64,000 nt of DNA from Mya arenaria (lineage: Eukaryota > Mollusca > Bivalvia > Myida > Myidae). The translations under genes and the position numbers were made by a program. This document shows positions 38,071 to 43,245 of this stretch, piece by piece. The notes below the pieces were generated by a model. It did no database searches. It worked only from the letters and a program-made list of their open reading frames with translations, and had not been told where the DNA came from. The stretch spans positions 91,044,628-91,108,627 of the forward strand of contig NC_069124.1 in assembly GCF_026914265.1 (NCBI RefSeq), in the 5' to 3' direction. Positions within the stretch are counted from its first letter, which is position 1; the number at the start of each line of letters is the position of its first letter.

Positions 38071-41000
38071 TCAGTCAGAGTCTTCCTCATTGCCATAGTC
38101 ATAGTCACCAGATAGAGTTCTACTCATTCCAGCTTAAATAGAAAACATGTTAAATTAATATTTTTAAAATTTAATGAGGGTCACCAAAGAAATAATTTTG
38201 AATTGGAGAATTTTCTTTAGACTTATTTTAAGAAATGGTGCATAATAAACATCTTAAAATGAGAGTTAGATTCTATATTCATAGTGGAGCACCTTTATAT
38301 AAAGAACAATGACTTGTTTCGCTAACCTGCAGCTCTAAGCATGGCAGCAGTTTGTGGGTCCTTGGCCAGCTGAAATGGAAGCTTGCCGTCTTGGTTATGC
38401 AGATTCACCACCGCACCTAATGACACAAACAACATCAACAGGTAACAAAAAAACAGTTTCATTCCAACAATTATTTCATACAAAATAAAAGGGTTTGGAA
38501 AGCACAGGTAAGTTTGAAGATTGAACTTAATTAGCATCCTTTCATAACTAAACTTTCAGTGCTTTGATTTTTATGAAGAATTTGCTAATTCATGTTATCT
38601 TTAAAACCTTTTTTGGCGGACACGTGTTGAATGACTCCGAGTGTTTTGGCTGTGACTTATTTTTCTTCAAATATTTTACGTTTTCAAAACATTTGGAAGG
38701 AGGAAATAGCATATATACAAGTCGCTTTTATTTTTAATAATGTTTTTATTTAATTGTTCCCAGTTTTAGTACAATGACGCTTTTTATTATGAAACTCTAT
38801 GATCACACAGTTTTAAACCTTTTATTTTATAAGGCAGACTGTGTGTGATGTTATTGGTTTCTAACGATGACTGCATCGTATCTTTGAAAAGTATTTGCAT
38901 TAGGTGCTCTGAATTCTTTCCCTCCGTCTGCAGATAGAATTGGGATCTCTAATCATTGAAGTACTTGGGGTTTACCTTTTCGTTTTTTATTATTATTTGT
39001 TTTATTGATAAGTTTCCTCAAGTTAATGCATACTTTGATAAGATTTACCTTTTGCGTTTTATCTTTATTAAGAATTGTTGGGATAAGAGTGAGGTTTGTG
39101 CACATAAACTGGTTTAAACCCCCAGTAAATTTACATTTTACTGACAGTTCCAAGGCGGTACCTAACAATTCTTGATAAACATCAAGTACCAATTATTTAT
39201 ATATATATATATATATATATATATATATATATATATATATATATATATATATATATATATATATATATATATATATATATATATATATATAGTATTTACG
39301 CACTGTGCTGTTTGTAGAGTTTTGTGCGTTTGTCTTTGGCGTTTGCCCATTGCCACTAAACCGGGTTTATGTTTAACTTTTTGCTACTGAGCATGTTTCT
39401 GTAGCTTTTTGCATATATATTAAATGGGCTAAAATCTCTGAGTTAAATGTGTGCATATAAAACCCCATGTACAATCAAAATCATTAATAGCTTTTTTCTT
39501 CATCTTTTTTAACATTCATGTTATAGCAACATATAAGAACATATTTGTTGACTTATTTCAAATTACTTATTTATTTTTACACGAAACCTTTGCAATTATT
39601 TACTTTACTGCTATCTATGGCTACAGCGATGCATTTATCTTATCACACTACATGTATATAGAGCGTAACATCTCGTGCAGAACTATACCTTTTTCCAGGA
39701 GGAGCTCGACGGCCTCTGCATGACCTCTCCAGGCTGCTGAGTGGATTGGAGTGTCACCTAACTTGTTCTATAAACATTATATAGAGCGACTGAATGAGAC
39801 GTCTTGAAGCATCATAAATGTTTCAGACACTACATAATATCATATTCTTGAAATCATAATGACATTGCCATCAAAAAATTTCCATTCTTTTGCATTATGA
39901 CAAACTAATGCATATCATTTCGATTATTTTCATATTGCAATTAACACAACATCTTCAGAACACCTCTGATACTATGAGAACAATGGATGTGATTGGTAAA
40001 ATGAAGGTTAATTGCGAGGAAACAAATGTGACATCGTTAAAACAAATGATGCCATTGATGCTGCTGCTTTTCAAGCAGCCCATTTTACAGACTACATGTA
40101 TGGCACTTGATGCGGGCTGTGTGTTCATACCTGGGTGGAGACCTGGCAGTTGGGCACGGCCAGCAAGGCTTTCATACAGTCAATATGCCCCCCGTGGGCA
40201 GCCCAGTGAAGAGGGGTTGCCCCAGCCTTGTCCAGCGAGTTTACTGATACCTGCACAACGTAAACAAACAACAATGACTTTTAATCTTTATGAAATAATT
40301 TAATGTGAAAAGTAGCTTAATATTTGGTTTTGAATAAAAATGTTACGAAATATTATTTCAGTCAAATAGATGATCTTACTCATAATATAGAAAATAATAT
40401 TTCAATGTATTCTGTAAATCCAGACTGACCTGGTTCTGTAAGCATTCTTGCAAGAAAGGCATGTTGCCTCTCTTAGCTGCATCATGGAGTGGGAAGTCTA
40501 TAGTCTCCGTGTTCTCTGCCACTAAAACATTCATTAACAATAACAATGATAGCAAGTTTGCAACTGTCATAGATTTGTCCCCTTTCTGCTATATTTTTTT
40601 TCTAAAACATAAGTGAATGAGTCCTATATTCTGCCTTAGTTTCAATATAATTTACAATCACTAAAGCGAAAAATTCATTGATCAATGACAACACATAATG
40701 ATTAACTCACTGAGATGACAATATCCTCTATAAATTGTTCTTACAGTGAGCCTACCATAGAGGCTGGGGTGGTATGAGTAAGGCATTGTTAATACCCTTG
40801 TTCATGGGTATGAGTCCGACCTTGTTCCTACCCTAGATGCAAGGTAAGAATCCGGCCTGGTTCCTACCATAGATGCTGGGTATGAGTACGGCCTTGTTCC
40901 TACCATAGATGCCGAGTATGATTACGGCCTTGTTCCTACCATAGAGCTGAGTATGATTACGGCCTTGTTTCTACCATAGATGCTGGGTATGAGTACGGCC

Positions 41001-43245
41001 TTTTTCCTACCATATATGCCGAGTATGATTACGGCCTTGTTTCTACTATAGATGCTGGGTATGAGTACGGCCTGGTTCCTACCATAGATGCTGAGTATAA
41101 TTACGGCCTTGTTCCTACCATAGATGCCGAGTATGAGTACGGCCTTGTTCCTACCATAGATGCCGAGTATGATTACGGCCTTGTTCCTACCATAGATGCC
41201 GAGTATGATTACGGCCTTGTTCCTACCATAGATGCAGAGTATGATTACGGCCTTGTTCCTACCATAGATGCCGAGTATGATTACGGCCTTGTTTCTACAA
41301 TCATTGCTAGATATAAGTCCTGCCTTGTTCCAACAGTAAGCCTACCATAGTTGCTGGGAATGAGGCCAGTCTTGTTCCCACATCGACCCTTCCACCAATC
41401 CTTGTTTGTGGAGTCCTGGATGTACAGCAGGTCCCCCTCTTCAAACGACAGCTCATCAGTCTGTATGATATACACATGTACAGGTTATACCAAACTAATT
41501 TAGGATCCATTTATGATTGCTGTTGAAAAAAAACCATGAAAAATGATAATATTATGATTATGGACGTCACTAAGGGGCTGTTTTCAAAAAGGAGCGTGAA
41601 ATAAGAAATTGTTTCACAATTTTGTGATTAATAAATTTTTGGAATATCAATGGTAATCTAAAATTGGAAACAAAGAAAAATTTACTGGGTAGATATAAAA
41701 TATTTTATCTATTTAGGGTAATCTTTCTTTGCTACTCACAAGAATAATCTAAATTTAACTCATACCTGTTGGGCATCATATTTGTACAACGCTCTCACAA
41801 CTTTCACTTGACCTGAGAAAAGCAACAACAAAATAATAATTGGTATTATCAAGTGGGATATTGTTCCCCAAAGATATTAAATCTCATACAAGCACACCTC
41901 CTGTTTATTCAGAAACCAAACAAAATGCAGCAGTTCATGAATTAAACAATACTTGTACTTTGATTGGTAAGTATAAAACTGTGGTCTAGTGGTTATGTTG
42001 CAGTCAAAGGTGATTCTTTATTTTACCAGGAGTGGTTTCAAACCCCATTTTAATAAGTCTAAATATTTTTTCCACACTAATTTTAATGCTTCTTGATAAA
42101 AGTTCATTAAAAAAATAATTGATCATCAGTGTTTTGTCTTGTTTAAATTGCTTGTTGAGTCATATTTCTATTAATATTCAAAAACGTGCATATTTATTTT
42201 GGTTTCTCTGAATTCATATTTTAAGCTGTATTTATGCATCAGCCAATTGTAACCATGGCCCCGACCAGGTCCGGGGAATAGTGGGGACTTTGACTTTCAG
42301 TCCAACCAATCCCAGGTAAAATCCCTGCCCTGCAGTTACAAACTGCTGGTAAAATCTCCGCCAAATGCCCCCGCACCCGGAGATAAGGCCCATTCCCCCC
42401 TATTTTTGGCATGAAAACAAAACCATCGCATTCCCTCGACACTGCAGAGCCACCTTGAAGGTAAAATCACGACCCATTCCGCCGCTATCCCCAGTATACC
42501 CCTGGACCTTACATATACTTTCACTGGCCAGATTACATATACTTTCACTGGCCAAATTACATATACCTACACAAAAAGGATAATCAATTTAATGCAATAA
42601 TTATTACTATTTTGTATCAGTATACTTTTAACACACAGTGTTTACAAACTTCAAAGTGACCAATTGATCACACCTCATAAATGATATATTTAAGCTGCGT
42701 TAGCCTTTCTTTAGAGAAAGACTTTTCTTGTATGACATCATTGTTTATTTATTTGCTGCACCTGATTGGACAAGGGCCATCATTTGATCAATGCTTATAA
42801 CGGCCCATCTTTTTCACAGATTTCTCTTTTTAATTTCCCATAAAATTGGGTATATCCTATCTCAAAAACAATAAACACAAACAGAAAATGTAAAATATCA
42901 GGATTATTTCATATTTTTCATGCAACTCCTTATAAAGGCTTCTGCAATTTTGGAAACTTCCCCAAGAAGCTCATAATTGTTTTGAACTGATCATGAAATG
43001 AATTACACTGTATTTTCGCTATTATAGCATTTTCCTCTGATCCAAATGGTTTTTAAACCGTAAATGTCCTATAAGACATACCAGGCTCGTGTCTTTTTGT
43101 TAACCCGAACCATTTTCCCTATTACTTATTCAGCAAACCATTTAAAATCACCTAAATTTGGTGGTCAATCATGTATAGAGTAAAAAATATCACCTGGTTT
43201 TGGGACGGGCGGTGGAGGCCGTACTGGTCTGGATGCACGTGACAT
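38071..43245 (-). CDS. OSTF1: Osteoclast-stimulating factor 1 (SH3 plus ankyrin repeats), complete
   Basis: A small intracellular adaptor of one SH3 domain followed by ankyrin repeats; in mammals it is implicated in Src-linked signalling and cytoskeletal regulation. Eight coding exons: 43245-43194 ([18 protein letters not shown]), 41812-41766 ([16 protein letters not shown]), 41460-41346 ([32 protein letters not shown]), 40521-40430 ([20 protein letters not shown]), 40250-40131 ([20 protein letters not shown]), 39767-39689 ([20 protein letters not shown]), 38416-38327 ([20 protein letters not shown]), 38132-38071 ([11 protein letters not shown], stop). The total is 657 nt, 218 residues; human OSTF1 has 214. 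All phases agree. The SH3 core (ALYKY, WW, PSNY), the ankyrin [11 protein letters not shown] signature and the acidic DSD end are kept. The start is the first ATG in exon 1 and matches the family's proline-rich N-terminus. Its promoter faces pygopus. Introns carry a TA microsatellite and an exon-derived minisatellite. Confidence 0.97.
39198..39291. repeat. (TA)n microsatellite, about 46 units
   Basis: Uninterrupted AT dinucleotides of more than 90 bp, in the OSTF1 intron between exons 6 and 7. Highly likely to be length-polymorphic. Confidence 0.98.
40800..41340. repeat. 36-bp minisatellite derived from the OSTF1 exon 3 / 5' splice site
   Basis: About 14 units of CCTACCATAGATGCCGAGTA plus TGATTACGGCCTTGTT (plus strand), 36 bp each. 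The end of OSTF1 exon 3 with its donor, at 41341-41378, reads CCTACCATAGTTGCTGGGAA then TGAGGCCAGTCTTGTTCC. Against the best units this matches 32 of 38 positions. On the gene's strand each unit therefore ends in CTATG|GTAGG, the same 5' splice site as the exon. The left end near 40745 repeats the real junction's flank (ACAGTGAGCCTACCATAG against ACAGTAAGCCTACCATAG). The array lies immediately downstream of the true donor, in the intron before exon 4. Confidence 0.93.
41978..42060 (+). repeat. tRNA-like SINE remnant
   Basis: A-box-like GTGGTCTAGTGGTTATG and B-box-like GTGGTTTCAAACCCC at tRNA-like spacing, in OSTF1 intron 1. No acceptor-stem pairing, so not a working tRNA gene. Confidence 0.35.
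42240..42570 (-). repeat. GC-richer dispersed repeat in OSTF1 intron 1
   Basis: An island of clearly higher GC than its surroundings, with CCCCGACCAGGTCCGGGGAA at one end and two direct copies of TTACATATACTTTCACTGGC (41 bp apart counting partial copies) at the other. Short open frames on both strands are shadows of composition. Probably an unclassified transposon relic. Confidence 0.45.

Follow-up and report, generated by a model that had tools for sequence, protein, structure and literature searches.

How does an intron come to carry a row of near-copies of its own 5′ splice site, and which of them would the spliceosome use? This question is raised by a minisatellite in intron 3 of OSTF1 (osteoclast-stimulating factor 1) of the bivalve Mya arenaria, in a 64,000-nucleotide stretch of contig NC_069124.1 (positions 91,044,628 to 91,108,627; assembly GCF_026914265.1), hereafter the window. 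Coordinates are positions within the window, and the array and the gene features are read on its minus strand. The original prediction, made from the letters of the stretch alone, held that the minisatellite arose by multiplication of an exon end together with its 5′ splice site. Comparison of all repeat units with the exon supports this claim, and the account that we consider probable is that of an exon-boundary minisatellite, duplicated in two steps and tolerated as near-neutral intron DNA, with the first donor normally kept.

Exons 2, 3, 4 and 5 of OSTF1, joined by eye, are colinear with human OSTF1, and the joined protein aligns with human 3ehq over query residues 1-123 against 13-135 (E 9e-48); both SH3 and ankyrin domains are matched. 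In this gene model exon 3 joins exon 4 in frame through the first donor and the gene is intact; exon 4 on its own matches the Pfam ankyrin models only weakly and stays under the cut-off. A genome-wide protein search placed three OSTF1 exons at the locus (E <= 8.3e-15), and among the 150 of 195 candidates that were scored no close paralogue was found, the next-best match having an E-value of 1.2e-7.

To compare the array with the exon, we aligned each of the 16 donor-like positions that lie downstream of the true donor at 41345, and that run to 40755, without gaps against 41341-41378, which comprises the last 33 exon bases and GTAGG. Fourteen of the 16 copies matched at 27-32 of the 38 positions (scores 27, 28, 29, 29, 29, 30, 29, 29, 27, 30, 17, 29, 32, 27, 27 and 18). 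The two low scores belong to a unit that a 1-base deletion has put out of register (17) and to the degenerate last unit (18). The prediction had given the likeness as 32 of 38, which is true of the best unit, at donor 40867, but not as a general figure, the commonest unit sequence reaching 29. With all units used, identity nevertheless stays well above chance. No 38-mer outside the exon and the array, on either strand of the window, reached 23 of 38, and a single one with that score on the other strand lay inside the array. The Smith-Waterman local alignment score was 46, compared with a maximum of 29 in 2000 dinucleotide shuffles (mean 14.4) and of 26 among 2966 other 38-mers of the window. 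When the donor was left out and only the first 28 of the 33 exon bases were compared, the score was 29, while none of 2000 shuffles went beyond 26; the match is thus not due to the splice motif alone, although the margin is then small.

These scores bear directly on the idea that an independent minisatellite merely happens to resemble the exon end. The genome is rich in arrays, with one in 26 of 62 loci of 3.1-3.9 kb, and this lends the idea some plausibility; set against the alignment scores, with and without the donor, and the presence of the same intron start at both ends of the array (below), we give it almost no credence. Nor did the array turn up elsewhere in the genome (1.216 Gb in 18 contigs) without OSTF1 sequence, a possibility that the prediction had singled out: at three or fewer mismatches the unit occurs nine times, all nine within the OSTF1 array, and the whole array used as a query found only itself in a search that skips very common words.

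The array is less uniform than its consensus suggests. Tandem Repeats Finder describes it as 14.7 copies of 36 bp (40771-41298), with higher-order periods of 72 and 108 bp. Measured from donor to donor, the first step runs from 41345 to 41298 and is followed by 36-bp steps, one of them shortened to 35 bp, to 40867 and 40831, and then by a degenerate pair at 40795 (placed by eye) and 40755. About 14 copies of 36 bp had been predicted, and 14 do match well; the description fails at the first spacing of 47 bp, at the 35-bp unit and at the last two units, which together span 76 bp. Between 41262 and 40867, 11 of 12 copies deviate from the consensus at 0-6 positions, and the twelfth, which carries the deletion and is out of register, at 19. 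Copies at the edges are more diverged: the one beside the exon has 13 deviations, and those at the opposite end of the array have 8, 12 and 17.

Arrays of this kind are already known but rarely reported, and OSTF1 is a further case. Minisatellite-like duplications of intron-exon boundaries have been named 'mirages' in lancelet globin, Adh, troponin C and PGBD5 genes (PMC3087553, PMC3902484); the remark in the prediction that such satellites are rarely described is fair, but the kind had a name. As in mirages, the OSTF1 unit spans a real exon-intron boundary of its host gene, the units bear splice signals, and a homogenised middle lies between diverged edges, a pattern also reported for the lancelet globin gene BflGb6 (PMC3087553). 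The lancelet examples (Adh3, the globins BflGb6 and BflGb9, troponin C and PGBD5) include both 5′ and 3′ boundary types, with units of 10-160 bp, some of a size similar to the 36 bp of OSTF1 (PMC3087553, PMC3902484). Unlike them, the OSTF1 array lies in a bivalve and in another gene, offers 16 decoy positions and permits a two-step history, of 47 and then 36 bp, to be proposed. Since the lancelet arrays are reported to vary in copy number (PMC3087553, PMC3902484) and ours is known from a single assembly, the array might be real and its copy number or edge frame misassembled. The units differ from one another in mixed order and the ends are diverged, which is unlike stutter, and we regard such an error as very unlikely.

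How might the array have arisen? The intron begins with GTAGGCTTACTGTTGGAACAAGG after the true donor and with GTAGGCTCACTGTAAGAACAATT after the last donor copy, and 12 of the first 13 bases agree. A tandem duplication across the boundary would produce just such a shared start, because it leaves the old intron at the far copy. Furthermore, the exon site TGTGGGAACAAG (from 41382) and the start of the second copy (from 41335) are 47 bp apart, and at the matching place the presumed old intron has TGTAAGAACAAT, which is identical to the exon site at 9 of 12 bases; a homology of this extent was equalled by 72 of 5000 random 60-mers. Because of the 47-bp offset and this homology, the first step was likely a 47-bp tandem duplication at short imperfect homology between TGTGGGAACAAG in the exon and TGTAAGAACAAT in the intron. 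The unit runs from the GG in GGAACAAG to the GG in GTAGG, so a likely second step is a 36-bp tandem duplication between these two sites within the new copy, which would have created it. Expansion of this unit and homogenisation of the middle would then have left the pattern now seen, with diverged edges and the original intron start in place. Both duplication steps were worked out after the sequence had been seen. If the history is true, an array-free intron 3 would begin GTAGGCTYACTGTAAGAACAA. The converse order of events, an array older than the exon, is rejected, as the exon end encodes the conserved end of the SH3 domain that is present in human OSTF1.

The unit is 12 codons long, and the prediction proposed that use of decoys could add blocks of 12 residues to the protein after the SH3 domain. 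The unit itself is mostly open when read in the exon's frame, as had been claimed, the array holds an open frame of 139 amino acids (40922-41341), and one lancelet gene model, for PGBD5, counts such repeats as an additional exon that no transcript supports (PMC3902484). However, with a first spacing of 47 bp the array and exon 3 are not in register, and the 139-residue frame starts after a TAG (41344-41342) at the true donor, unconnected to the exon. All 16 decoys would extend exon 3 by a length of 1 or 2 modulo 3, so that none keeps the frame and each leads to an early stop; if the first decoy (41298) were used, the stop would be reached in exon 4. The variants among units are mostly non-synonymous: 13 of the 16 copies, leaving out 40939 (out of register), 40795 and 40755, gave 15 distinct non-synonymous changes, one of them a stop, and 6 synonymous ones, where random change would give 82:26. 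Because of the frame shifts and stops and a variant ratio near that of random change, there is no sign in the sequence that the array is kept as protein. For this assembly in-frame blocks are contradicted, and as an explanation of the array we find them scarcely credible; an allele with a different first spacing might conceivably make them. On the plus strand the array is likewise open, for 142 codons (40922-41350), as a stop-free 36-bp unit permits.

If the decoys cannot lengthen the protein in this allele, could they still be used? Judged by predicted pairing with U1, a crude measure of donor quality, the true donor (-7.7 kcal/mol) is equalled or exceeded by 12 of the 16 decoys, the other four lying between -1.3 and -5.1 kcal/mol; the donors of exons 2, 4 and 5 have values of -7.7, -8.3 and -7.5 kcal/mol. 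The true donor has a predicted local accessibility of 0.41; of the 12 good decoys, 10 fall in the range 0.28-0.44 and the other two have values of 0.01 and 0.13. The true donor is thus predicted to be more accessible than 11 of the 12, a small edge that is too crude to lean on. Folding of the transcript offers little support for a structured RNA that conceals the decoys: a 319-nt stretch comprising the exon end and part of the array (41400-41082) had a z-score of +1.22, and 92 of 100 shuffles folded at least as well as the native stretch.

The chief alternative takes the donor strengths at face value. Decoys would be used, long exon-3 transcripts with an early stop would result, and the length of the array would set the amount of productive OSTF1 message. 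Beyond the pairing energies and the early stop that follows from every decoy, this alternative can draw on repeats at exon-intron boundaries of human gene duplicates, which are reported to change introns, with an alternative transcript in 66% of such cases (PMC2812944). Against it speaks the slightly better predicted accessibility of the true donor; moreover, that donor should benefit from the context of the exon to which it belongs. The lancelet mirages are also reported without disturbance of splicing: for Adh3 and globins the authors take their data to suggest that regular splicing is unimpeded (PMC3087553), the Adh and troponin C mirages are said not to 'generate aberrant mRNAs' and the same is assumed for PGBD5 (PMC3902484). 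Overall we hold this alternative to be unlikely. A further reading, in which the array is a ladder of equal donors with splicing spread over its whole length, so that all rungs but the first lead to an early stop and array length sets OSTF1 output, strikes us as improbable; under it, array length should vary between clams.

We return to the account given at the outset, of a boundary duplication in which the spliceosome would normally keep the first donor, the one beside the real exon, with the array tolerated as near-neutral intron DNA. By analogy with the lancelet arrays, splicing would take place at the first donor; leaky use of a decoy would not lengthen the protein but shift the reading frame into an early stop, and the transcript would be a likely target of nonsense-mediated decay. 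Several points weigh against this account. The preference for the first donor is itself inferred, 12 of 16 decoys are no weaker than the true donor in predicted pairing, and the predicted accessibility of 10 good decoys is close enough to that of the true donor for leaky use to be quite possible. In humans, repeats where exons and introns meet reportedly change the structure of genes (PMC2812944). On the side of the proposed history, the breakpoint homology was spotted after the fact, and the intron start of the last copy may have been copied from the first by conversion and not be ancestral. Finally, 7 synonymous and 4 non-synonymous differences separate the exon from the exon-edge copy, a result that would not be expected from pure drift of the copy alone and that may reflect constraint on the exon side.

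Other systems share parts of this picture. The human interferon-induced gene G1P3 reportedly carries a minisatellite of 12-bp units whose alternative donors are used in transcripts (a report attributed to Turri et al. 1995, NAR 23:1854); going by its title, it would be a second precedent for the OSTF1 array. In intron gain by tandem duplication, described for a potato RdRp gene, duplication across or near an exon boundary copies splice signals, as in OSTF1 (PMC4974935). Unlike in intron gain, the OSTF1 repeats stay, in our gene model, inside an old intron between exons that are continuous in OSTF1, and no new intron is recognised. The variable internal tandem repeats of human segmental duplications are minisatellites of which some lie at exon-intron boundaries and can change gene structure; they sit in recent gene duplicates (PMC2812944), whereas for OSTF1 no close paralogue was found among the 150 of 195 candidates that were scored. 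Among the titles that a literature search listed there was no mollusc case of such an array, which is no proof of absence; in the accessible part of the one mollusc paper among them, on Conus genes, minisatellites appear only in the reference list and no such array is reported (PMC3862624). Lancelet mirages have been proposed as raw material for new introns (PMC3087553). A clear bivalve case with birth steps that can be proposed would mean that lancelets are not the only animals in which the process occurs. The array also amounts to a natural test of how the spliceosome chooses among a dozen near-identical donors.

Table 1. Features of the OSTF1 exon 3-exon 4 region in window coordinates.
Feature	Position	Strand	Basis
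OSTF1 exon 3, 115 bp, C-terminal part of SH3 domain	41346..41460	minus	Pfam SH3_1 E 6.7e-12; colinearity with 3ehq
Putative original 47-bp duplicated segment: last 37 exon bases and first 10 intron bases	41336..41382	minus	Inference; copy 2 starts at 41335
True 5′ splice site of intron 3, CTATG/GTAGGC (slash marks the boundary)	41344..41345	minus	Join reads SNYVAEN, continuous with OSTF1
OSTF1 intron 3, 824 bp	40522..41345	minus	Exon join
47-bp first spacing, made up of the intron start GTAGGCTTAC and the exon-edge copy	41299..41345	minus	Spacing and sequence comparison
TAA closing the exon 3 frame once extended	41281..41283	minus	Frame reading
Core array, 36-bp units (one of 35 bp), donors 41298 to 40867	40832..41298	minus	Tandem Repeats Finder; donor alignment
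Degenerate terminal pair of units, 76 bp together	40756..40831	minus	Donor spacing; alignment
Last donor copy, then presumed ancestral intron start GTAGGCTCACTGTAAGAACAAT	40734..40755	minus	12 of 13 first intron bases same as after true donor
OSTF1 exon 4, 92 bp, start of ankyrin part	40430..40521	minus	Exon join; colinearity with 3ehq

How common are such arrays in this genome? We sampled 61 other loci (30 kinase, 30 RRM and one SH3 match), with OSTF1 as a positive control, which was recovered. None of the 61 had an array overlapping a domain match or within 60 bp of one, a weak test given that some loci overlap or are duplicates, hold stops or lie in long frames, and that a domain match need not reach the exon end. 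A 15-base exact match to the flank, found in 2 of the 61, is taken as chance. Within the window, the consensus units of six other arrays, drawn from 25 overlapping Tandem Repeats Finder rows, had no convincing match outside themselves. For one of them, a 33-bp array, the only matches were to its own ragged edge and to stretches of 11-12 bases, and the three longest of these other arrays held no strong donor by the motif used.

The window has further features. The 33-bp array (27493-30722, ~95 copies) has open frames on both strands, and its units contain ACAGGTAG, without a strong donor by the same motif. Long minisatellites occupy 1-1085 (51 bp, 21.7 copies) and 56463-57542 (47 bp, 23.3 copies), with no consensus match elsewhere in the window at the setting used. 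On the plus strand, a frame of 217 amino acids (47651-48304) shows a PHD-finger-like cysteine pattern after a Gly/Pro/Met-rich stretch, and is presumably Pygopus-like. In the genome at large, some domain matches come in pairs of equal E-value, ~0.5-2.3 Mb apart on the same contig (for example C2:68707769/70214784, C10:12125893/13352927, C13:22047149/23268291, C14:20467009/21232338 and C16:31769897/34095783), which suggests either large segmental duplications or an assembly that has placed both haplotypes next to each other.

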